Positions 8,944 to 64,000 of a DNA stretch of 64,000 nucleotides are shown here, in pieces. The notes beneath the pieces are model-generated. The model ran no database searches and was not told the DNA's origin. It was given only the letters and a program-made list of their open reading frames with translations. The position numbers and the translations under genes were made by a program. How positions within the stretch are numbered: position 1 is the first letter of the stretch; every line of letters starts with the position of its first letter. Source of the DNA: Sulfurimonas sp. (lineage in GTDB: Bacteria > Campylobacterota > Campylobacteria > Campylobacterales > Sulfurimonadaceae); NCBI GenBank assembly GCA_028689055.1, contig JAQTWZ010000007.1:1-64000 (forward strand), given 5' to 3'.

Positions 8944-9038
8944 TGTATATTGAATATTTTAACTCAATAAACTTTAGTCAATATCTATCAAGTATGATTT
9001 TTCTTGAAATATTTAAACTTCGTTAAGTAAGAAAGGGT

Positions 9039-11078
9039 ATGATAAGAGGAGAAAATAATACAAAATCGGAGACCCCGCTCATGCGATATACAGCCATTAT
9101 TTCGGGCATTTTTGCCATTATACTTTTTGGTATATATACACTTGCGTTTACACCACTTGGAAATTCTATTGTCGCACCTTTTATAGAATCAAAAATTCGC
9201 CACGAAACAAAAATAGCGAGTAAATTAACTACATTTGTCTTAAATATGAGTAGTTTTGAGATTGTTTTGGAGCTTAGTCCAAGTAATATTGTAAGTGCCA
9301 ATGGAAATTATTCTCTTTTTTCACGTGCTTTTGATATTGCCTATAGGGCAAAACTTGATCAGATGAGTGATTTACATGAGCTTGCCGGAGTTCCCATCAT
9401 TGGAAGAATTTTTACAGAAGGTCATATCAAAGGCGATATGGATTTGATGCAAATAGATGGTTTAAGTGATATTACAAAAAGTGAGACCACTTATCATATC
9501 GAGCTAACACAGCTCCGTCCCACTTCTCTTCTTGCAAAAGTAAAACATGCGGACCTGCTTTCTTTGCTGCAGCTAGGTGGGCAAAAGCCTTATGCCAGTG
9601 CGCAGGTCGATATGGATATTGATTTTAAAAATATTATGCCGCATGCACTTGATGGAGTTTTGCATCTGCAAACGCACAATGGAAAAATTGATACAAAACT
9701 GATGCGAAGTGATTTTAATGTCACAATTCCCGAGATGGCATTTTCTATGAATGTAGACGCAAAACTTGAGCGTGAAAGAATTGATTTTGTCTATGCACTT
9801 CACTCAAACCTCGCAAAAATAGAATCATCGGGAAAAATAATTCCACAGCCTTTTTCTATGAATGTGAAATATAACTTGGATATTGAGGAACTTGCAGTTC
9901 TGAAGCCTTTCACAAATGCTTCGCTTCGTGGGCCACTCAATATTTTGGGAGAAGCAAAGGGGACAAAAGAGCGTTTGAAAATTGATGGCAAAAGTGATAT
10001 TTGTGCTTCTAACACAAACTTTGTGCTGGAGATGAAGGATTTTAAACCCGCAACACTTCAGGCAAAGATGGATAATCTCAAGCTTGAAAAAGTTTTATAT
10101 ATGATACAGCAGCCTCATTATGCAGAGGGGCTTTTGTCGCTTGATGTCGATATCAGCGATGCACGAAGCAAAAGTCTCAAAGGCAATATAAAAACAAATA
10201 TCACAAACGGTTTGCTGGATTCTCAATATATAAGCAAAGCTTTTGCATTTAAAAGTGAGATGCCAAAAACACTCTTTGATCTAAGCGCACAGAGTGTTTT
10301 GGATGCAAATAGTATCCAAACGCAAGTGACACTCAATACAAACCTTGCTACTTTGTCTATGCAAAAATTGCTTTTTGACACAAATGACACGTCGATCAAT
10401 ACAGATTATAAGTTCTCAGCCCAAAATTTGGATGCCTTTTATTTTCTCACGCAAAGACATATGCGGGGTGCACTTGTGGCAGAGGGGAGAGTGAAAAAAT
10501 CAAAAGATTTGGATGTGACGCTTCACTCGAACATCATGAGCGGAACTTTAGAAGCAAAACTTCATAATGATGAGCTCTACGCAGAACTCAAATCACTCCA
10601 AACGCAGAGTATTTTACATACGCTTCTCTACCCTGAGATATTTGAAGCGTCACTGAGTGGAGCTTTTGCTTACAATCTTTTGGCAGATAAAGGAACTTTT
10701 GAAGCAAAATTTGCAGATGGACTCTTTAGCAAAAATGAGATATTTACACTCATCAAACATTACGGCATTTTAGATATGTACGCGGAGAGATTCCACGGGG
10801 ATATCAACGCAAAGATAAACAAAGAGTTCATCGTCGCTTCACTTGAACTTTTGTCCAACAAATCTTCAATCAAAACGCAGCAAACAAAACTCAACTCTAA
10901 AACAAAAGCGATAGATTCAGAACTTGATTTAGTGGTCAATAACAACCCGATTTCTGCATCTATACAAGGGACTACGGATGCTCCAAAAGTCTCTGTTGAT
11001 CTGGAACGGTTTATGAAGTCAAAAGCAGGCGACGCAGTAAAAAAAGAGGTCAATAAATTTTTAAAAGGACTTTTTTAG
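9039..11078 (+). CDS. AsmA-like inner-membrane-anchored protein
   Basis: A 679-residue protein with a single N-terminal membrane anchor (about residues 17-37) and a long periplasmic region of alternating short beta strands, including repeated units in which a strand pair ends in GxxKGDMD/GDINAKI-like turns. This fits the AsmA/TamB-like group of bridge-like envelope proteins involved in lipid transport or outer-membrane homeostasis; I recognise the style and not a specific orthologue. Two starts are possible: 9039, with AAAGGG very close, and an internal ATG at 9081, preceded by GGAG at better spacing and giving MRYTAIISG. It is transcribed divergently from grpE-dnaK and converges on the gene at 11080. 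Confidence 0.6.
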   Translation: MIRGENNTKSETPLMRYTAIISGIFAIILFGIYTLAFTPLGNSIVAPFIESKIRHETKIASKLTTFVLNMSSFEIVLELSPSNIVSANGNYSLFSRAFDIAYRAKLDQMSDLHELAGVPIIGRIFTEGHIKGDMDLMQIDGLSDITKSETTYHIELTQLRPTSLLAKVKHADLLSLLQLGGQKPYASAQVDMDIDFKNIMPHALDGVLHLQTHNGKIDTKLMRSDFNVTIPEMAFSMNVDAKLERERIDFVYALHSNLAKIESSGKIIPQPFSMNVKYNLDIEELAVLKPFTNASLRGPLNILGEAKGTKERLKIDGKSDICASNTNFVLEMKDFKPATLQAKMDNLKLEKVLYMIQQPHYAEGLLSLDVDISDARSKSLKGNIKTNITNGLLDSQYISKAFAFKSEMPKTLFDLSAQSVLDANSIQTQVTLNTNLATLSMQKLLFDTNDTSINTDYKFSAQNLDAFYFLTQRHMRGALVAEGRVKKSKDLDVTLHSNIMSGTLEAKLHNDELYAELKSLQTQSILHTLLYPEIFEASLSGAFAYNLLADKGTFEAKFADGLFSKNEIFTLIKHYGILDMYAERFHGDINAKINKEFIVASLELLSNKSSIKTQQTKLNSKTKAIDSELDLVVNNNPISASIQGTTDAPKVSVDLERFMKSKAGDAVKKEVNKFLKGLF

Positions 11079-38625: not shown

Positions 38626-39576
38626 ATGGATGAACATTTATTACGTGAAATAGAGATTAAAGATTTTAAATGCTTCAAAGATTTTAAAGCGGATGGATTT
38701 AAAAGAGTCAATCTTATTGGTGGGAAAAATAATGTTGGAAAGACGGCTTTTATGGAGGCTTGTTATTTAGGAATAAATACAAAAATTAAAAAAGATTTTT
38801 TTCATTCTCTTTTAGTTTTAGAATTAAATAGAAATCCTTTAAAAGAATTTGAAATATTACAAGACACTAATAATTTTGATTTTAAATTTAGCGATTCAAA
38901 GATTAAAATTAATAATAGTAGTGCCTCAGCATCATTTGTGACAGATGGATTATATGAAAAACCAAAAAAAACATATAACGAAGGAGTAAAAGAATTCTTA
39001 GATTTTTATCAAAGTAAAGAAAAACCATTAAATATAAAAAACAATTCGTTCATTTCTCAAACAAGCATGAGACAAAATTATATTGTTGACTGTATTGATG
39101 AGTTAAAACTTTTACAAAAATGGGATTATTTAAATAGAGCATTATATGATAGTTTTCAAATAAAAAAAATAGATGTGATAAAAAATAAAGTGATGCTACT
39201 TAAAGATGATACATTTCTCGATTTATCGGAATTTGGAGATGGACTAAAACAATTTATAGCAATTTTTTTATCTTTATATTTGAATAAAGATAAAGTAATA
39301 TTTTTAGATGAAATAGAAAATGGGATACATTATTCTTTTTTAGATAAATTATGGGAAATAATCTTAAAAATTTCAAAAGAACAAAATGTCCAAGTATTTG
39401 CTACAACTCACTCAAAAGAGTGTATAGAATCTTATGCAAGAGTTGCTAAAAAACTTGAAGATGAAGATATAACATATATAAAAATGTCAAAACAACAGGA
39501 CGGCTCAATTTACGCAGGTGTTAGAGAGTATGATATTTTAGAAAATAGCATAGCTCAAGACCATGAGGTAAGATAA
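38626..39576 (+). CDS. OLD-like AAA ATPase (possible defence gene)
   Basis: A 316-residue AAA_15/AAA_21-type ABC-like ATPase. Walker A is GGKNNVGKT near residue 32. The DLSEFGDGLKQFIAIFLSL region carries an ABC-signature-like stretch, followed by Walker B VIFLDEIENGIH and the ATTHSKE switch histidine. This is the ATPase of OLD-family nucleases without its fused TOPRIM domain; the TOPRIM partner is the next gene, overlapping by one base. Base composition is clearly more AT-rich than the lsrK and mqnE genes on either side. Two-gene ATPase/TOPRIM pairs of this type (PARIS, Gabija-like, split OLD) act in phage defence. Confidence 0.8.
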   Translation: MDEHLLREIEIKDFKCFKDFKADGFKRVNLIGGKNNVGKTAFMEACYLGINTKIKKDFFHSLLVLELNRNPLKEFEILQDTNNFDFKFSDSKIKINNSSASASFVTDGLYEKPKKTYNEGVKEFLDFYQSKEKPLNIKNNSFISQTSMRQNYIVDCIDELKLLQKWDYLNRALYDSFQIKKIDVIKNKVMLLKDDTFLDLSEFGDGLKQFIAIFLSLYLNKDKVIFLDEIENGIHYSFLDKLWEIILKISKEQNVQVFATTHSKECIESYARVAKKLEDEDITYIKMSKQQDGSIYAGVREYDILENSIAQDHEVR

Positions 39577-40106
39577 TGTATGCCATTTTACATGAGGGAA
39601 AAAGTATAGATAAAAGTTTTTTTGAACTTTTATTGGATAATTTAGCGCTCGATAAAAATTCTGTCAGATTTTATGGAATGGGTACAAAAAGCAATTTTTT
39701 TAACAAAGAACATATTCAGTATAAGACTTTGAATGATGATATTCCTGATACTCCTATTTCAAAAGTATTATTTATAATTGATGCAGATGATAGTTTTGAA
39801 GATACAGAAAACAAATTAAAAAAAATGATTGAAAATTTAAAATTAAATGAAATTAGTGATTTTTATATAGCTTGTAATCAAGAAACAAAAACAGGTTATT
39901 TGGAGTCTTTAATTTTGTCGTCGATACCACAAGAACAAAAAGAGTGTATAGAAAACTTCTTAGATTGCTCTGCATTTAAATCTAAAGAGAATCATAAAAG
40001 TATTTTGAATGAAATATATAAAAAAGCATATCCAAATGCTCCTTATGATTTTACACATGCCAACTTTGACGAGTTAAAAGCAAAACTACAAAATTTATTT
40101 GAATAA
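39576..40106 (+). CDS. TOPRIM/DUF3226-like partner of the OLD-like ATPase
   Basis: A 176-residue protein with a TOPRIM-like fold: an acidic first motif LHEGKSIDKSFFELLL at the N-terminus (the EGxxD pattern), then VLFIIDADDSFED near residue 70 with the DxD pair that binds metal. Such domains cut nucleic acid or act as effector nucleases in OLD, PARIS (AriB, DUF4435) and related systems. It starts in a TAATG overlap with the ATPase gene, so the two proteins are made together. The exact family (DUF3226 or DUF4435) needs a profile search. Confidence 0.7.
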   Translation: MYAILHEGKSIDKSFFELLLDNLALDKNSVRFYGMGTKSNFFNKEHIQYKTLNDDIPDTPISKVLFIIDADDSFEDTENKLKKMIENLKLNEISDFYIACNQETKTGYLESLILSSIPQEQKECIENFLDCSAFKSKENHKSILNEIYKKAYPNAPYDFTHANFDELKAKLQNLFE

Positions 40107-56542: not shown

Positions 56543-57625
56543 TTATAGAATGATTAGTTTTTCTTTGACGTCTTCGTACGTTTTTGTATCGAGATAGATA
56601 TCGAGTTTCGTATCTAAGAGTGATTTAAGTACGATTATAGGGCTTAAATCGTAGTTTGAGCCTGAGATAATTTCACGTATTTTTAACTCTTTTTCTAAAG
56701 AGGGAGGATTAAAAATAAGCTCATGTATCTCTTGATATTGTGTTTGACACAGCTCATTAAAATAATCTAAACTTATAAACTTAATCTCTTCACGGTTGAA
56801 ATAGTGTACGTTTTGACTCTCAAACTCTATTTTGCCTTGAGCTTTTTTTCGTGGAAGCGTAGAGTAGCTTAATGCATACGCAGGCAGAACTTTATTTTTG
56901 CCCTCTGTGACTTTGAAATTTAGTTGTCGGTAGTTGAGAAATTTTTCTCTTATGATTTTGTATTCTACGCCCGCATCTTCAAGTTCCATCCTGCGTTTAT
57001 ACATCGCAAGTCTCTCTTCTATAGAAGCAGGAAGTGTTGCGTTTGATATCGGAGAGAACATCTCATCCATCAGTTTATCTTGTTGGTCTCTTTGCATCGT
57101 GAGTCCAAAAATACAGCCGCAGTAGTCTTGACGGTAAAGCTGTTCCTCTTTAGTGACACGGCTTTGGTCTTGAGTGCCTCCGCCTGAGCGATAATCCACT
57201 GCGATAAACTCCACGCCATGTTTGGCATGAAACGCATCGCCTACACGTTTGAGCTGTTCTTGGGATTTGAGTGGACTTACGAGTAGGGTTGTGGTGATTT
57301 TATTTTCCCCAATCTCAAGCGCTTTTTTTGCGCTTGTGATAAAACGCTTATCAAAACAGACTTCACAACGCGCCCCTTTTTCGGGTTCGTTTTCAAGCCC
57401 ACGAACGGCTTGAAGCCAGTTTTCATAATCGTATTCACCCTCAAGTAAATCAATGCCGAGTTTTTTACATGAGCGCTCGACGTCAAGTAAACGCAACTGG
57501 TATTCTGAATAAGGATGAATATTGGGATCATAAAAAAATCCGGTGAGTTTTTCATCTGGATAATCATGCTGCAATTTCTCTAAAAAAAAGTGCGAATCAA
57601 CGCTGCAACAGATGTGAACCAACAT
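56543..57625 (-). CDS. queH: Epoxyqueuosine reductase QueH with C-terminal extension
   Basis: A 360-residue QueH (DUF208). The opening LVHICCSVDSHF carries the paired Cys; CEVCFDKR (near residue 87) and the YCGCIFGL motif (near 168) give the other cysteines and metal-site residues. QueH reduces epoxyqueuosine to queuosine in tRNA, as an alternative to QueG. Minimal QueH is about 180-220 residues, so the last ~150 residues (from about 215) form an extension with helix-rich basic character that may bind tRNA. It lies beside the defence operon on the opposite strand. Confidence 0.9.
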   Translation of the reverse strand: MLVHICCSVDSHFFLEKLQHDYPDEKLTGFFYDPNIHPYSEYQLRLLDVERSCKKLGIDLLEGEYDYENWLQAVRGLENEPEKGARCEVCFDKRFITSAKKALEIGENKITTTLLVSPLKSQEQLKRVGDAFHAKHGVEFIAVDYRSGGGTQDQSRVTKEEQLYRQDYCGCIFGLTMQRDQQDKLMDEMFSPISNATLPASIEERLAMYKRRMELEDAGVEYKIIREKFLNYRQLNFKVTEGKNKVLPAYALSYSTLPRKKAQGKIEFESQNVHYFNREEIKFISLDYFNELCQTQYQEIHELIFNPPSLEKELKIREIISGSNYDLSPIIVLKSLLDTKLDIYLDTKTYEDVKEKLIIL

Positions 57626-57848
57626 ATATTTTCCTTGATTTTTTTTTGCAAGTATAGCAAAATAGTTTCTTCTCTTTAGTTTTTAACAGAAGATAAAAAT
57701 ATAAGAAAAAAAGCGGATTTTAAGAGCCAGTATGTTTTTTGGGGAATATGGGAGGATATGCCATATCTTAAGAAGTTTATTATCGGTTTTAATTAAACTC
57801 AATATGAACATTAGGTACACTCACTAAAAAAAGTAAGTATGGATTTAT
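57626..57848. other. Intergenic region before the RADAR-like operon
   Basis: A divergent gap of 223 bp between queH and the DndC-like gene. It is AT-rich and holds a GATATG...CATATC palindrome (near 57752-57764), but no consensus promoter, tRNA or recognised attachment site was found. It marks the left border of the transferred segment. Confidence 0.4.
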
Positions 57849-59333
57849 ATGACAATTAGTCAACAAACACAATTTATAGTAGGTATGCTGCAATACTACG
57901 AAACACAAGCAGTGGATATGTTAATGAATTATTATTTTAATGATTCTCGTTCTTTTTGCGTCGCATATAGCGGAGGCAAAGATAGTAGTGCTGTTGTCTA
58001 TCTAGTAATTAAAATGCTTCAACAAATTAAAAATCCTAAAAAAACAATTTATATTTTAAACTCAAACACATTTGCGGAACTACCACCTGTCTTAGAACAT
58101 CTTCAAAAATCTTTAAAATCAATTCAAGAATTTTCAGTAAAGCATAAATTGCCGATAGAAGTTATTGAAGTTGTTCCTGAAATGAAAAACACTTTAAATG
58201 TTCAACTTTTTGGTGTAGGCATGCCACCTCCAAGTCAAACATTACGTTGGTGTACGGATAAATTAAAAGTGCAACCCATAGATAAAAAAATTAAAGAGCT
58301 ATTCCCCTCTGGAGAGTTTATATCAGTATTAGGTACAAGAAGTGATGAGGGATATAAAAGGCAAGAACGAATTGAACAAAGAACCGTTAAGGGAACAGAT
58401 TTAAAATTAAATGATCGTTATCCAAAAGCTTCAAATCTCATGCCCATAGAAAATTGGTCAACAAAAGAAGTATGGAGCTATCTATTGAGCCAAACAAACG
58501 AGTTGATTGATGTTGATTTTTTATGGAAACTTTATAGCGATGCTAGTGATAAAAATGCATCTGAATGTTCCTTTGTTGGTGCAGGTGGGAAATATATTGA
58601 TGAAGGGAAGCTTGGCTGTGGAACTTCACGATTTGGCTGTTGGCAATGTTATTTAGTAAGAGATAAAGATAAAAGCTTAGACGGATTAATGCAGAGTGGT
58701 TACAAAGATTTGGAACTCTACAATGGATATAGGGATTGGTTTTGGCAGTTTACACAACAAGGTTGGGAAAAGACAAGAGATGTTTATAATCATCGAACAC
58801 AAGTTAGAGATTTTTATGATAAAGGTGGCGAAGATAATATTAAATATGGGATGACTATGCCAAAAGGTCTTACTTTAGATATACGCAAAAAAGCATTTAA
58901 AAAGTTTGTTGAATTACAAAAAAATATTGAAGAACCACTCATTACACAAGAAGAAATAATTTTAATTCAGCAGAGGTGGATACTGGAGGGTGATTTGAAT
59001 TTAACAGCTTTTAAATATACGAAAGAACTAGAATTAAACTTGAATAGTTTCTCTTTACCAAAAGAGATGAGAGAGAAGATTCGACTCGCAAAAGAAATTT
59101 TAAAACTTCTCAAAACAGATAGCGACATTAAAAAATATTATTCTTTAAATACTTTAAAAAGATTTTCAATACAATACACAGCAAACAAAAATAAATGTGC
59201 TACAAAATTTTTTCCTACAAAAGAAGAGGAAAAACATATTCGGACAGAATGGGAAAAGGCACAAAAGTTAGAACAAAGAACACAAGAAGACTTAGATTTA
59301 TACTCTCTAGTACAAGGGCTGACGAATGAATAG
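57849..59333 (+). CDS. DndC-like PP-loop/Fe-S protein, first gene of the RADAR-like operon
   Basis: A 494-residue PAPS-reductase-superfamily protein that follows DndC, the sulfurtransferase of DNA phosphorothioation. The PP-loop is SGGKDSS (residues 41-47). Candidate [4Fe-4S] ligands are C135 (RWCTDKLK) and C257, C264, C267 in KLGCGTSRFGCWQC, closely like the DndC spacing. RDKDKSLDGLM and LMPIENWSTKEVW also fit DndC. No dndB, dndD, dndE or cysteine desulfurase is near. It overlaps the ATPase gene by 8 bp, so it is made together with it. It may sulfurate a nucleic acid or nucleotide, or serve as a sensor; neither is shown. The composition is AT-rich compared with queH. Confidence 0.82.
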   Translation: MTISQQTQFIVGMLQYYETQAVDMLMNYYFNDSRSFCVAYSGGKDSSAVVYLVIKMLQQIKNPKKTIYILNSNTFAELPPVLEHLQKSLKSIQEFSVKHKLPIEVIEVVPEMKNTLNVQLFGVGMPPPSQTLRWCTDKLKVQPIDKKIKELFPSGEFISVLGTRSDEGYKRQERIEQRTVKGTDLKLNDRYPKASNLMPIENWSTKEVWSYLLSQTNELIDVDFLWKLYSDASDKNASECSFVGAGGKYIDEGKLGCGTSRFGCWQCYLVRDKDKSLDGLMQSGYKDLELYNGYRDWFWQFTQQGWEKTRDVYNHRTQVRDFYDKGGEDNIKYGMTMPKGLTLDIRKKAFKKFVELQKNIEEPLITQEEIILIQQRWILEGDLNLTAFKYTKELELNLNSFSLPKEMREKIRLAKEILKLLKTDSDIKKYYSLNTLKRFSIQYTANKNKCATKFFPTKEEEKHIRTEWEKAQKLEQRTQEDLDLYSLVQGLTNE

Positions 59334-61947
59334 TAAAACAATTCAAGAAAATGAACCAATCGTAATCAAAATAGAAGAATCTTTAGATGCTAGCAAAAGG
59401 TTTAAAGCAAATAACTTATTGCAAAAAAAAGCAATAGAAAAAATAAAAAAATTAGTGGGCAGTAGACTTGATAAACTTAATAGTGAAAATTGCAATGATA
59501 GAAAACATGACACTATAACTATTCTTGGCGAAAGAGGAAGTGGAAAAACAAGTTTATTGTTAAATTTAAAAACAATATTAAATGATTTAGAAGGTCATAA
59601 AGATGAACTTGTATTTTTAGACATAATCGATCCAACGCTTTTTGAGACAAAACAAAATATTTTAGTTTCTATTATATCTTTGATAGCTGATACAGTAAAA
59701 AATAAAGCAACGGAAGAGTGGAGTCAATCTTTGGTTGAACTTGGAGATGGTTTAAAACTTCTTGATGGTATTGGAAGTGATATTATGAAAAATGACCTTT
59801 TTGACGATGGAGCTTTGATACTTGAAAAAGGATTAGACCATGCAAGCTCTGGGCTTAATCTTGAAAAGAGTTTGAATGAGTTTATTTCTAAGAGTTTACC
59901 TCTATTAGATAATAAAAAAATGTTTGTATTGGTATTTGATGATATAGATACAAATATAGATAAAGGTTGGATGGTACTTGAAACCATAAGAAAATATTTG
60001 ACTTCATGCCAACTGCAAGTATTTGTTTCTGGTGATTGGGAATTATATTCATCGCTTGTGCGAATGAAGCAGTGGGAAAATTTCGATAGAAAAATTTTAC
60101 CTTACAAGGAATGGCACGATAAAAAAGATTTGGTTAATGATTTAGAGGAACAGTACTTAATAAAAGTTTTAAAGCCTGAAAATCGTATATATTTGGAAAA
60201 CTTTTATCAATTAACTAAAAAAACTGAAGAAATCTATGTGAAAGGTTTTGGTGAAGAAGTACTTATAAAATCAATTTACAAGTATGTAAGTGAAATTTTA
60301 TTTAATTTTCAAAACAAATCACAACAAGAAGAGCTATCTAATCTTATTAAACAACTTCCAATTAGAACAAATATGAAAATATTTTATGTACACTTGATAA
60401 ATCAGAATGATGCAGAAGGACTTATCAACGCTATAAGCAATGTATTTATTACAAATACTGCAAGATTTAAATTTACACATTTAGATTATGAAGATTTATC
60501 TCCTAATGCTGTACTACAAGAAATGGCAAAAAAACTTTTTTTACTTTCAGATAAACAGTTTTCTTTTGAAAAACTAAGTCAATTTCCTATGAATTTACGT
60601 AATAAAGATATTAATTTACTTTTAATGGTAATAGGGTTACATTTAACAACAACAATCAGTTCTAATCTATATACATTCTTTGAATGGCTTACGAGATTTA
60701 CATATTTAGAAATACTAGGAAAAGACAAGCAAACAGAAGATGGGAAAAATGGGCTTTTGCGTAAATTAAAGCATGACTCAACCATTTCCATGGAAGAACA
60801 AATAAATTTAATCTCTCAAGAATATATTCAAGCAAGAAATTCGCTTATAGGCTTTAAATCGATATATACATTCCATAAATATGCTAAGGCTCATGGATAT
60901 ATTGGTGCTGATAAATTTCAAGAATCTGGCAATATAGACGAAAAATTTCTTTTAGATATTTTACTATCAAAGTCAGGTCGAATAGCCCATGCCGAGCAAA
61001 GTAGCATTAGCATAATCAATTTATTTGCTTTCTTGCATGAGTTTTTACAGAAAAACCACGAAGAAGCACAAAGTTATTTAACTTCTATTTTTGAAGAGTT
61101 TCATTATTTTAACGGTAATGACCATTTATTTGTAAGCCAAAAAGCAGATGATGTTTTGAACAATAATTTATATAAAAGCCTATTAGAATGGCATAAGCTG
61201 AGAGACACTGTAGAGATGTTCTCTATTTCACAAATTAATACCATATGGAAAAGTTTTCTTGAAAAAAATGACAATGAAATTCAAAGTAAAAAAATTACTA
61301 CAGTAAAAGATTTTATTTCAACACAAATTATTGTTTTTTTTAATTTACTAATTACAGAAATATTATTTAACAAAGGGATTTACAAATCTTATTCAAGTGT
61401 AACATCTCCTAGTAACTTATATAGAAATATTGAAAATGCTTATGGTGAAACTTATAGTGAAAATTTTTACAATGAATACAAAAAATTAGATTTTTTTAAA
61501 TACATGTACTTATGTCCAATCTTATATTGTTTTGTTGATGATGCAAAATTTGTTATTCCTGATACTAAATATTGGATAACACAAGAAGATAAAAATAGAA
61601 TTATTACATCCTTTGGAACATTAAGATTACAAGCAGGTAGTCAAAAAGAAGTAGTATTAAATGATATTAAGAATAAACAAACTACAGAGATTATTTTAGA
61701 ACCAACCGAAACAGTAGAAAAATACATTAGTAAAAGTGATTTAAAGAAAATCACAAAAAAAGATTCTAAAGATATTGATAATCTTATTACTGAAATAAAA
61801 AATGGAAAAATCAAGACTAGAGATCAACTTTGGGATCATTTGAAAACTGGTAATGAACGAGCTACTGCACCAAGAAAAAGTATTTTAGATCGTTTTCTAA
61901 GAAATATTCAAAATGATATAGAAGCAGATGATTCACAAACTCATTGA
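59326..61947 (+). CDS. rdrA: RdrA-like ATPase of a RADAR-type system
   Basis: An 873-residue P-loop ATPase. Walker A is GERGSGKTS (residues 68-76) and Walker B VLVFDDIDTN (about 201-210). The long C-terminal part is helical with no other motif I recognise. Size, Walker layout and the neighbouring deaminase fit RdrA, which in RADAR forms a ring-shaped ATPase that works with the deaminase RdrB during phage infection. It overlaps the DndC-like gene by 8 bp and the deaminase gene by 20 bp, so translation is coupled on both sides. Identification rests mostly on the pairing, since RdrA sequences vary. Confidence 0.78.
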   Translation: MNSKTIQENEPIVIKIEESLDASKRFKANNLLQKKAIEKIKKLVGSRLDKLNSENCNDRKHDTITILGERGSGKTSLLLNLKTILNDLEGHKDELVFLDIIDPTLFETKQNILVSIISLIADTVKNKATEEWSQSLVELGDGLKLLDGIGSDIMKNDLFDDGALILEKGLDHASSGLNLEKSLNEFISKSLPLLDNKKMFVLVFDDIDTNIDKGWMVLETIRKYLTSCQLQVFVSGDWELYSSLVRMKQWENFDRKILPYKEWHDKKDLVNDLEEQYLIKVLKPENRIYLENFYQLTKKTEEIYVKGFGEEVLIKSIYKYVSEILFNFQNKSQQEELSNLIKQLPIRTNMKIFYVHLINQNDAEGLINAISNVFITNTARFKFTHLDYEDLSPNAVLQEMAKKLFLLSDKQFSFEKLSQFPMNLRNKDINLLLMVIGLHLTTTISSNLYTFFEWLTRFTYLEILGKDKQTEDGKNGLLRKLKHDSTISMEEQINLISQEYIQARNSLIGFKSIYTFHKYAKAHGYIGADKFQESGNIDEKFLLDILLSKSGRIAHAEQSSISIINLFAFLHEFLQKNHEEAQSYLTSIFEEFHYFNGNDHLFVSQKADDVLNNNLYKSLLEWHKLRDTVEMFSISQINTIWKSFLEKNDNEIQSKKITTVKDFISTQIIVFFNLLITEILFNKGIYKSYSSVTSPSNLYRNIENAYGETYSENFYNEYKKLDFFKYMYLCPILYCFVDDAKFVIPDTKYWITQEDKNRIITSFGTLRLQAGSQKEVVLNDIKNKQTTEIILEPTETVEKYISKSDLKKITKKDSKDIDNLITEIKNGKIKTRDQLWDHLKTGNERATAPRKSILDRFLRNIQNDIEADDSQTH

Positions 61948-64000
61948 TATAGATATATTAACACCGTTGACTTTTTTAAGTTCGAAGCGACTTCTAGAGA
62001 GGTATAAACAAGCATCATTTGCCAATATAAAATTAATTAAAGAAGATGTGTTTTTAACTCAAAGAGAGTTGCGATATGATTTTCCAGACCAAATCCATGA
62101 AAACTTGATAGAGCAGTTTTTTGAAGATTTTAAGCAAGACTTTTCATATTATTCAGTTAAATCTATACGACTAATCAATGAAAAATATTTTGATGAAGCA
62201 GGATATATTAAAAAAGATTTATATCTTAATTGGAATAATCTATTAACATTAGTTCCACCTTTGCTTTTTAGTTCTTATCCCATAAAAAACTCAGAACAAA
62301 CTAAGTTTTATCATTCATCACTGCCGATACCAAAAGATAGTGAACAAGAAGCTTTAACCAAATCAAAAATGATAGAAACACATCTGCATATCAACGGTAC
62401 ATCTGAAACAATTTATAATTGGCACTATTTTTTGGATAATCTTGACCAAGCATATTTGGCTTTGAAAGAGTCATTTAAAGATAATGCTATTCTTTTTAAG
62501 CAAAATGGGATAGATAGTATTAAAGATTTTATAGACGTTTTGAAAAAATCAAAATCAATTTTTGAGTATATACTTTATGAAGTGGATTATGACCCGAATG
62601 ATTATAAAGAATGGGAAAAGTATTTGTCCTCAAGTATAGTCTTTGATAAGCACTTACAGATAAGAATAAATGCAAAAAAAAGACAGAAAAAATTTAATAA
62701 TAAAAATATAATTTATAGAGAAGTGAAATTTTATAATTTAATTTTCAACACCATGGCTGATGCTGATACAAAAAAAGATATTTATAGCAGACTGCTTCAC
62801 TATTATATTTTGGCACAATCATTATTCAATAAGCTGTTTGTACAGCAATTAAGTCAATACGGGTTTTCTCAGTTTCAAAGAATTACAGATAGTAAATTAA
62901 GAGATCAATATGAAGATAAGGGCTTTGTAGATAGATATAAACAATTAGAAGGTGTAGGTAAAACTAATATACTAAAACATTTAGAACTTAGATTTGCACC
63001 TAAAAATACAACTTACAATACAACCAAGTTATACTCTAAAATAATCAATGATTATGAGAAATATAAAAAGTTAAATGATAAATTACAAGAACCTTTAGCA
63101 ATACCAACTATTTCAGTAACTACTCATTTTATAAAGCATAAAGAACAAAAAAATCCTAAATATATTTATCTAAGAGATTCCAAAACTAAATCAGAACTAA
63201 ATAAAAGAGTAGTTTCTATTATGGGATTGCTATCACTATCAAAGCCAAAGTATTTACCACAAAACCATCCAAGTTTTAAAAAGTTTGATTTTTTAAATGC
63301 TATTGATGCAGCTGGAAATGAACTCTATGCAAGACCAGAAGCTTTTGCGTCAAGTTTTAGATATATAAGAGAACAAGCGAAAAAAAGATTTGATAAACAT
63401 ATAAATATGACTTTTCATGCAGGTGAAGATTTTGTACATCTTGTTTCTGGGATTCGTTATATTTATGAAGCAGTGATGTGCTTAGATATGAAAGCAAAAG
63501 ATAGAATAGGACATGCCACAGCTTTAGGACTTAACCCTAAAATCTGGAAAGAAAAATTAAACAATACGGTTGTAATGAAACAAGGTGAGCATTTAGATAA
63601 TTTGTTTTTTGTTCTGATGGTTATTAAAAATAACTCAAAATACAATATCGGCTATGAAGTTGCAGAAAAAGAATTTAATAAATATTGTAATAATATTTAT
63701 GGTCTAGAAGTGAATTTTGAAGATTATAAGACTTTTTTTGAAAATAGATGGCGAGAGAAAAAAGAGGCAATTAATCAACCTACTGAAAATCAGTTGGCAA
63801 TTTTTAACAAGTACCATTCTATACAAAGCTATTCTCAATATAATAGGCTTGTTACAATTGATTTAAATGATATTTCAGATTCTATTATAATTTTCCTACA
63901 AAATAAAATTTTAGCTTTATTAAAAGAAAAAGAGATAGCAATTGAATCAATGATTACGAGTAATACAAGGATTAGTTTTTATAATAACTTTAAAGAACAC
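61928..64000 (+). CDS. rdrB: RdrB-like adenosine deaminase (runs off the window)
   Basis: A frame open from ATG 61928 to the window edge, 691 residues so far. Adenosine-deaminase motifs appear in order: ETHLHING (zinc ligands H152 and H154), FHAGED (H497 and E500), GHATALG (H529) and ITSN (T677-N679). The final Asp motif should lie just past the edge. About 340 residues separate the HxH and HAGE motifs, far more than in ordinary ADA, as expected for RdrB (about 800 residues in total). RdrB has been reported to deaminate adenosine in RNA or ATP during infection. It is the third gene of the operon. Confidence 0.82.
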   Translation, partial: MIHKLIDIDILTPLTFLSSKRLLERYKQASFANIKLIKEDVFLTQRELRYDFPDQIHENLIEQFFEDFKQDFSYYSVKSIRLINEKYFDEAGYIKKDLYLNWNNLLTLVPPLLFSSYPIKNSEQTKFYHSSLPIPKDSEQEALTKSKMIETHLHINGTSETIYNWHYFLDNLDQAYLALKESFKDNAILFKQNGIDSIKDFIDVLKKSKSIFEYILYEVDYDPNDYKEWEKYLSSSIVFDKHLQIRINAKKRQKKFNNKNIIYREVKFYNLIFNTMADADTKKDIYSRLLHYYILAQSLFNKLFVQQLSQYGFSQFQRITDSKLRDQYEDKGFVDRYKQLEGVGKTNILKHLELRFAPKNTTYNTTKLYSKIINDYEKYKKLNDKLQEPLAIPTISVTTHFIKHKEQKNPKYIYLRDSKTKSELNKRVVSIMGLLSLSKPKYLPQNHPSFKKFDFLNAIDAAGNELYARPEAFASSFRYIREQAKKRFDKHINMTFHAGEDFVHLVSGIRYIYEAVMCLDMKAKDRIGHATALGLNPKIWKEKLNNTVVMKQGEHLDNLFFVLMVIKNNSKYNIGYEVAEKEFNKYCNNIYGLEVNFEDYKTFFENRWREKKEAINQPTENQLAIFNKYHSIQSYSQYNRLVTIDLNDISDSIIIFLQNKILALLKEKEIAIESMITSNTRISFYNNFKEH

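Follow-up and report, generated by a model that had tools for sequence, protein, structure and literature searches.

A divergent branch of RADAR whose DndC-type partner also occurs with Menshen and other effectors and has been exchanged among them: a hint of something broader

We analysed a stretch of 64,000 nucleotides from Sulfurimonas sp. (contig JAQTWZ010000007.1 of assembly GCA_028689055.1, positions 1 to 64,000 of the forward strand; hereafter the window), at the right end of which a dndC-like gene is followed by genes for an RdrA-like ATPase and an RdrB-like deaminase. The pair represents a divergent subclade of the RADAR defence system, and its DndC-type partner is shared and exchanged with the Menshen system and other effectors, which hints at something broader. 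The reading that we tentatively prefer is a DndC-type module for sulfur transfer that stands alone and takes swappable effectors, here a divergent RADAR on a mobile cassette. A sequence-only reading of the same DNA had described these genes as one operon. The open reading frames (ORFs) confirmed the three genes and their overlaps of 8 bp (dndC-like/rdrA-like) and 20 bp (rdrA-like/rdrB-like), with rdrA and rdrB adjacent on the same strand:

57849..59333, + strand: dndC-like gene (494 amino acids, aa), a PP-loop ATP pyrophosphatase / 4Fe-4S enzyme of the PAPS-reductase family; SGGKDSS at residues 41-47, Cys 135, 240, 257, 264, 267
59326..61947, + strand: rdrA-like gene (873 aa), an AAA+ ATPase; GERGSGKTS, LVFDDID
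61928..64000 in the window (to 64249, where the stop lies 249 bp past the window edge), + strand: rdrB-like gene (773 aa; L002:5928-8249), a Zn-dependent deaminase of the adenosine deaminase (ADA) fold; H152/H154/H497/E500/H529/D710

Profile searches with the RdrA-like protein revealed matches to the RdrA profiles of PADLOC (4.8e-25) and NCBIfam (6.5e-44; 150 bits, below the equivalog cut-off of 600 bits), and the RdrB-like protein matched the RdrB profiles of PADLOC (1.5e-21) and NCBIfam (1.7e-34; 120 bits, below the cut-off of 800 bits). The NCBI equivalog cut-off is a naming threshold and no defining property of RADAR. Because experimentally confirmed RADARs show only 22-28% identity across their conserved parts (PMC9994260), scores below it mark divergence and not exclusion from RADAR. 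Sequence comparison with the solved proteins gave 8.6e-30 for RdrA and 2.5e-45 for RdrB. The RdrA alignment covered the ATPase half only, to which sequence alignment of RdrA is limited in RADAR in general (PMC9994260). Foldseek comparison of an AlphaFold model of the RdrA-like protein (predicted local distance difference test 83) with the solved RdrA ring subunit 8hr8 gave a full-length match (template modelling score 0.70, E ~1e-23, ~880 columns). Profiles and structure comparison identified an RdrA-type AAA+ ATPase with Walker A and B motifs and the RdrA C-terminal fold. In the RdrB-like protein, H152, H154, H497, H529 and E500 are equivalent to H152, H154, H498, H530 and E501 of EcRdrB; this histidine tetrad and the glutamate are invariant in 96 of 96 aligned RdrB sequences, and D710/D711 and an ADA-type SDDP motif are also present. 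Judged by profiles, invariant deaminase residues and predicted fold, the RdrA and RdrB of the window are genuine but divergent RADAR proteins, as the sequence-only reading had held. No match was found for RdrB in 50,697 phage genomes or for RdrA in a scan of viral contigs.

The first gene product showed matches to the DndC profiles of PADLOC (5.3e-80) and TIGR03183 (5.1e-62; 210 bits, below the cut-off of 290 bits) and to Pfam PAPS_reduct. A survey of 397 Campylobacterota genomes combined with family-wide searches divided the DndC matches into a tight clade of 12 loci in 11 genomes, the window included, with scores of 717 bits or more, and a remainder that reached 283 bits at most and consisted mainly of canonical dndC with genes for a DndD-like ATPase and a DndE-like protein behind it. 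Identity within the tight clade is 51-82%, and about 29% to canonical DndC; in the tree the window enzyme falls outside the canonical DndC group with support of 100/100. The PP-loop and all five cysteines are invariant in both the tight clade and canonical DndC, so that the window enzyme has the PP-loop and Fe-S cysteines expected of DndC. By motif and spacing the cysteines correspond to C146, C262, C273, C280 and C283 of E. coli B7A DndC; a published assignment gives four of these to a 4Fe-4S cluster (PMC12193691). The loop preceding the first cysteine of DndC is predicted to enter the DNA major groove (PMC12193691). It reads GVGMPPPS before C135 in all 12 tight-clade members, whatever their effector, and mostly GKGYPSPT or similar in canonical DndC. 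If this loop reads sequence, all tight-clade systems would mark one common site. The solved structures nearest to the predicted fold are adenosine phosphosulfate/phosphoadenosine phosphosulfate (APS/PAPS) reductases and 4Fe-4S tRNA thiolases, including TtuA and NcsA. As to a sulfur donor, for which Dnd systems use DndA or a housekeeping desulfurase, the source genome encodes two NifS-type cysteine desulfurases scoring above cut-off.

Plasmid matches to DndC were all distant (34% for the best among the matches listed) and mostly annotated as canonical DndC. Viral contigs gave no match with a two-row DndC alignment and, with a wider one, only distant DndC relatives (at most 35%). L154, L155, L211 and L212 form a sister group of DndC proteins, about 580-630 aa long, in surroundings that look plasmid- or phage-like; one member, on an M. 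mytili plasmid, has a cytosine methylase nearby.

Searches anchored on RdrB, taking the best 80 of 430 relatives in a scan of genome contigs, revealed the window, G106 (L030; RdrB 77% identical) and L036 (RdrB 67%) as three loci of which all three carry the DndC-like gene. Sequence reaching 2 kb or more upstream of rdrAB was available for 69 of the 91 RdrB loci fetched, and any DndC occurred only in L030, L036 and Shewanella L074, where it belongs to a canonical-looking dndBCDE set beside rdrA. Tight-clade DndC was thus present in 3/3 loci of the group (window, L030, L036) and in 0/67 other RdrAB loci with this much upstream sequence. A fourth locus, L210, was found through a DndC-anchored search and is left out of this unbiased evidence for the association with an RdrB clade; its RdrA and RdrB share no more than 29-34% identity with those of the window, yet they likewise lie downstream of a DndC-like gene. 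The gene order of the window is repeated in L036/L193 (Sulfuricurvum) and L210, and DndC is convergent in L030. In maximum-likelihood trees the RdrA of the four DndC-linked loci, and likewise their RdrB, fall into a single clade at 100/99 (0.997 in the RdrB tree of 96 rows), apart from the roughly 90 RdrAB pairs that lack a DndC-like gene. An HNH-nuclease-like gene (362 aa; L210 2064-3152) lies immediately after the divergent operon of L210.

The flanks of the three genes mark the insertion site:

56543..57625, - strand: queH, at the left of the insertion; adjacent to the peptidyl-prolyl isomerase (PPIase) gene in 21/24 congeners
57626..57848, + strand: upstream region between queH and the dndC-like gene, 223 bp, AT-rich; presumed operon promoter
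64257-64829, - strand: PPIase gene, right flank, beginning 7 bp beyond the rdrB end

In 21 of 24 genomes of the same genus queH and the PPIase gene are adjacent, mostly at most 25 bp apart. In the window they lie 6.6 kb apart and are separated by precisely dndC-like, rdrA and rdrB. The guanine-cytosine (GC) content of the insert is 0.28 (dndC 0.32, rdrA 0.27, rdrB 0.27) against 0.39-0.41 in the flanks, and an inverted repeat, CTACATACC...GGTATGTAG, overlaps the rdrB stop. This layout marks the three genes as one mobile three-gene defence cassette, inserted precisely. The window locus has neither a fourth cassette gene nor a SLATT or Csx27-like gene, and in a promoter and terminator scan the upstream 223 bp scored no higher than shuffled background. 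In Sulfuricurvum STD1_133 (L193; 3174-7739 and 8221-14513), genes for TnsA, a TnsB-like transposase, TniB and TniQ are directly followed by the DndC-RdrA-RdrB triad, an arrangement suggestive of a Tn7-like element with the triad as its cargo. Recurrence and precise insertion rule out a chance neighbourhood of the dndC-like gene and rdrAB. Beyond the window, an ORF with a transposase domain (DUF772) lies near the contig end (C77 73235-73552; L002:17235-17552).

RADAR is one of several partners of the tight-clade enzyme. Its 12 loci comprise four with RdrAB, five with Menshen, one with a DUF262 gene and two with a ParB-like pair. The Menshen loci (L150-L153 and L194) carry full NsnA-NsnB-NsnC (PADLOC 3.5e-118, 2.7e-105 and 7.7e-155 in L151), the DUF262 protein of L207 matches the HEC-06, Orf5 and SspE profiles, and L208 and L209 encode a ParB-like (PD-Lambda-5_A-like) protein with a second protein without family match. 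DndC leads the effector operon on the same strand in six of the loci (overlap or gap of at most 77 bp), is convergent with a tail-to-tail overlap of 10-33 bp with the last effector gene in the other six, and stands alone in none. The Sulfuricurvum genome G474 has both the RADAR and the Menshen version. NsnA, NsnB and NsnC are absent from the window locus, and a search of the source genome for NsnC did not find it. Menshen-like operons without a DndC neighbour were seen in seven plasmid loci of other phyla and in Campylobacterota L195.

Comparison of the trees revealed a conflict. The DndC tree joins the window with L036 at 100/100 and G106 (RADAR) with G322 (Menshen) at 100/99, and in the RdrA tree the window groups with G106 at 98/94; the G106 DndC groups with the Menshen-linked DndC of its own genus, which is likewise convergent. 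This conflict at G106, together with gene order, shows at the level of phylogeny that the effector behind the DndC-type enzyme has been exchanged. The recurrence that the sequence-only reading had named as support for a RADAR variant was found (four loci, a single RdrAB clade, precise cassette insertion), and the DndC-rdrA-rdrB unit stands as recurrent; the DndC-like enzyme is not specific to RADAR, with relatives of it beside Menshen, DUF262 and ParB-like genes. That reading would have abandoned the variant if relatives lay beside unrelated genes. Literally they do, yet the neighbours are always defence or defence-like modules, and the association is real but modular.

Four of these loci contain further proteins without known family. 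In L207 (8636-14233) the tight-clade DndC gene adjoins a tyrosine integrase gene and is convergent with the DUF262 gene and a gene for a 320-aa protein. The second protein of L208 (10743-12843) and L209 (6829-8935) has 327 aa and no Pfam or PADLOC match, and this recurrent pair, convergent with DndC, is a candidate new defence effector. In the Sulfuricurvum Menshen locus L194, a 249-aa protein without family match is encoded between NsnC and the convergent DndC (8979-9728).

On the reading that we prefer, a housekeeping cysteine desulfurase would load the 4Fe-4S/PP-loop enzyme with sulfur; the desulfurase genes and the cysteines are present in the source genome. With ATP, the enzyme would then modify a host molecule with sulfur, most probably by putting a phosphorothioate-like mark on DNA, and would do so without DndD or DndE. 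The adjoining effector may read the presence or absence of the mark, or may be regulated by the enzyme, with the RdrA ring as the putative reader in RADAR. Infection would break self-recognition, and RdrA would turn on RdrB, which would convert ATP/dATP to inosine triphosphates (ITP/dITP) so that phage growth stops, as is established for canonical RADAR. RADAR is further characterised by a giant RdrA-RdrB assembly. As the mark and not the effector would be common, RADAR, Menshen (NsnABC), a DUF262 protein or a ParB-like pair could be swapped behind one enzyme. The effector may be held off or licensed by the mark, and known phosphorothioate systems show both polarities. Sulfur transfer, its substrate (DNA phosphorothioate or other) and the gating of RADAR are what we infer. 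In the stronger form of this reading, a sulfur mark made by one DndC-type enzyme in the absence of DndD/DndE would control RADAR, Menshen, DUF262 and ParB-like effectors, and RADAR here would be modification-gated and not a free-standing nucleotide-poisoning system; this form is more doubtful.

Several points weigh against this proposal. To our knowledge, phosphorothioate installation requires DndD/DndE or SspB/SspC, and canonical RADAR, as far as we know, functions without a DndC-type enzyme. Searches for DndD in the 11 tight-clade genomes gave no match above 29 bits, against scores of 231 and 82 bits in two genomes with canonical dnd that served as positive controls. No dndB, dndD or dndE lies at the window locus, DndE not having been searched genome-wide, and no SspB or SspC was seen in the neighbourhood of the locus, for which no genome-wide search was made. 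No sulfur-mark reader domain was recognised in RdrA or RdrB, and all 12 tight-clade loci come from one phylum, Campylobacterota.

The absence of DndD from every tight-clade host genome also speaks for the strongest rival, which we consider unlikely: the enzyme may modify a non-DNA target, either a tRNA or RNA base, like the 4Fe-4S thiolases TtuA and NcsA that the fold search also returned, or a partner protein, and so arm or restrain the effector. There is precedent for PP-loop enzymes that modify a partner protein within defence operons: Cap9, an enzyme of the QueC family, does so in type IV CBASS, and the same has been proposed for QatC (PMC13279940, PMC11996544). The window enzyme, however, is nearer to DndC than to any thiolase family and keeps the five DndC cysteines and the GxGxPxPxxxxRWC loop. 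A tail or motif common to RdrA, RdrB, NsnA-C, DUF262 and ParB partners, as a protein substrate might show, was sought by eye and no obvious one was seen.

Less probable again is a small gene for defence or modification that acts independently and travels beside effectors without functional coupling, RADAR and Menshen working without it. About 90 RdrAB loci, and Menshen loci checked outside the group, do exist without the DndC-like gene, which in half of its own loci lies on the opposite strand. A mere traveller fits poorly with a gene that leads the effector operon in six loci, overlaps it tail to tail in six and is nowhere alone, with a window cassette of exactly dndC-like, rdrA and rdrB, and with DndC-linked RdrAB pairs that form one clade.

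PP-loop enzymes use ATP to activate carbonyl or phosphate groups. The DndC-like enzyme might accordingly act on the nucleotides of RdrB. It might add to ATP depletion as an ATP pyrophosphatase, or it might adenylate and thiolate inosine nucleotides so that a thiopurine poison results; RdrB makes ITP/dITP (PMC9994260), and these have an activatable O6. We regard this as very improbable: the same clade pairs with deaminase-free Menshen, DUF262 and ParB-like modules, so that inosine cannot be the general substrate. Direct chemical coupling of sulfur transfer with deamination, which the sequence-only reading had suggested, is unlikely, given that the enzyme is also the partner of effectors that contain no deaminase, and two separate jobs fit better. 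An ordinary canonical Dnd locus beside RADAR, of which the dndBCDE-like genes adjoining rdrA in Shewanella L074 are an example, is scarcely credible and was rejected for the window locus, which has no dndB, dndD or dndE, whose source genome has no DndD, and whose enzyme lies outside the canonical DndC group.

For the preferred reading of a sulfur-transfer module with swappable effectors, the shared partner suggests that effectors with unrelated mechanisms have a control step in common. It bears on what triggers RADAR and Menshen and on how hosts avoid self-poisoning and, if true, would place DndC chemistry outside the DndDE scaffold. A second low-GC insert (0.31) of two genes lies elsewhere in the window (38626-40106, +), between xylulokinase-like and mqnE-like genes. 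It encodes an AbiLi-like AAA ATPase (PADLOC 6.3e-47) and a DUF3226 protein and is probably an AbiL-type defence pair.

In the literature covered, which does not extend to a 2025 Menshen domain study (gkaf357), we found no account of DndC with RADAR or with Menshen. The QueC-family defence enzymes are likewise PP-loop enzymes that are required partners within a defence operon, but they have a Zn site and no 4Fe-4S/DndC cysteines. DndC of DndABCDE shares the PP-loop SGGKDS, the five cysteines, the GxGxPxPxxxxRWC loop and a length of about 490 aa with the window enzyme, which differs in its low identity, its separate clade (100/100), the lack of DndD and of adjacent DndE/DndB, and its pairing with an effector. 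Phosphorothioate writers with exchangeable restriction modules such as DndFGH, DndI and PbeABCD are known (PMC11662687, PMC6459918). DUF262 proteins SspE and DndI sense phosphorothioates; DndI is toxic without the mark, and SspE needs it (PMC11662687). These systems (DndBCDE with DndFGH or DndI, DndCDEA-PbeABCD, SspABCD-SspE) resemble the present one in combining one sulfur writer with alternative effectors and DUF262 readers, but their writers need DndD/E or SspB/C, and RADAR is not among the known effectors. For Menshen (NsnABC; DUF262, AAA/DUF3696 and NsnC), a review lists only DUF262 and OLD-type parts (PMC10952713). The same DndC clade leads or abuts the full NsnABC operon in five relatives, but Menshen is not at the window locus and elsewhere occurs without a DndC neighbour. 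Compared with RADAR (PMC9994260), the window proteins are only about 18-30% identical, form their own clade, and have a DndC-like third gene and no SLATT/Csx27 gene, but the locus keeps an adjacent RdrA AAA+ ATPase and RdrB Zn deaminase in order, all catalytic residues and a full-length predicted RdrA fold.

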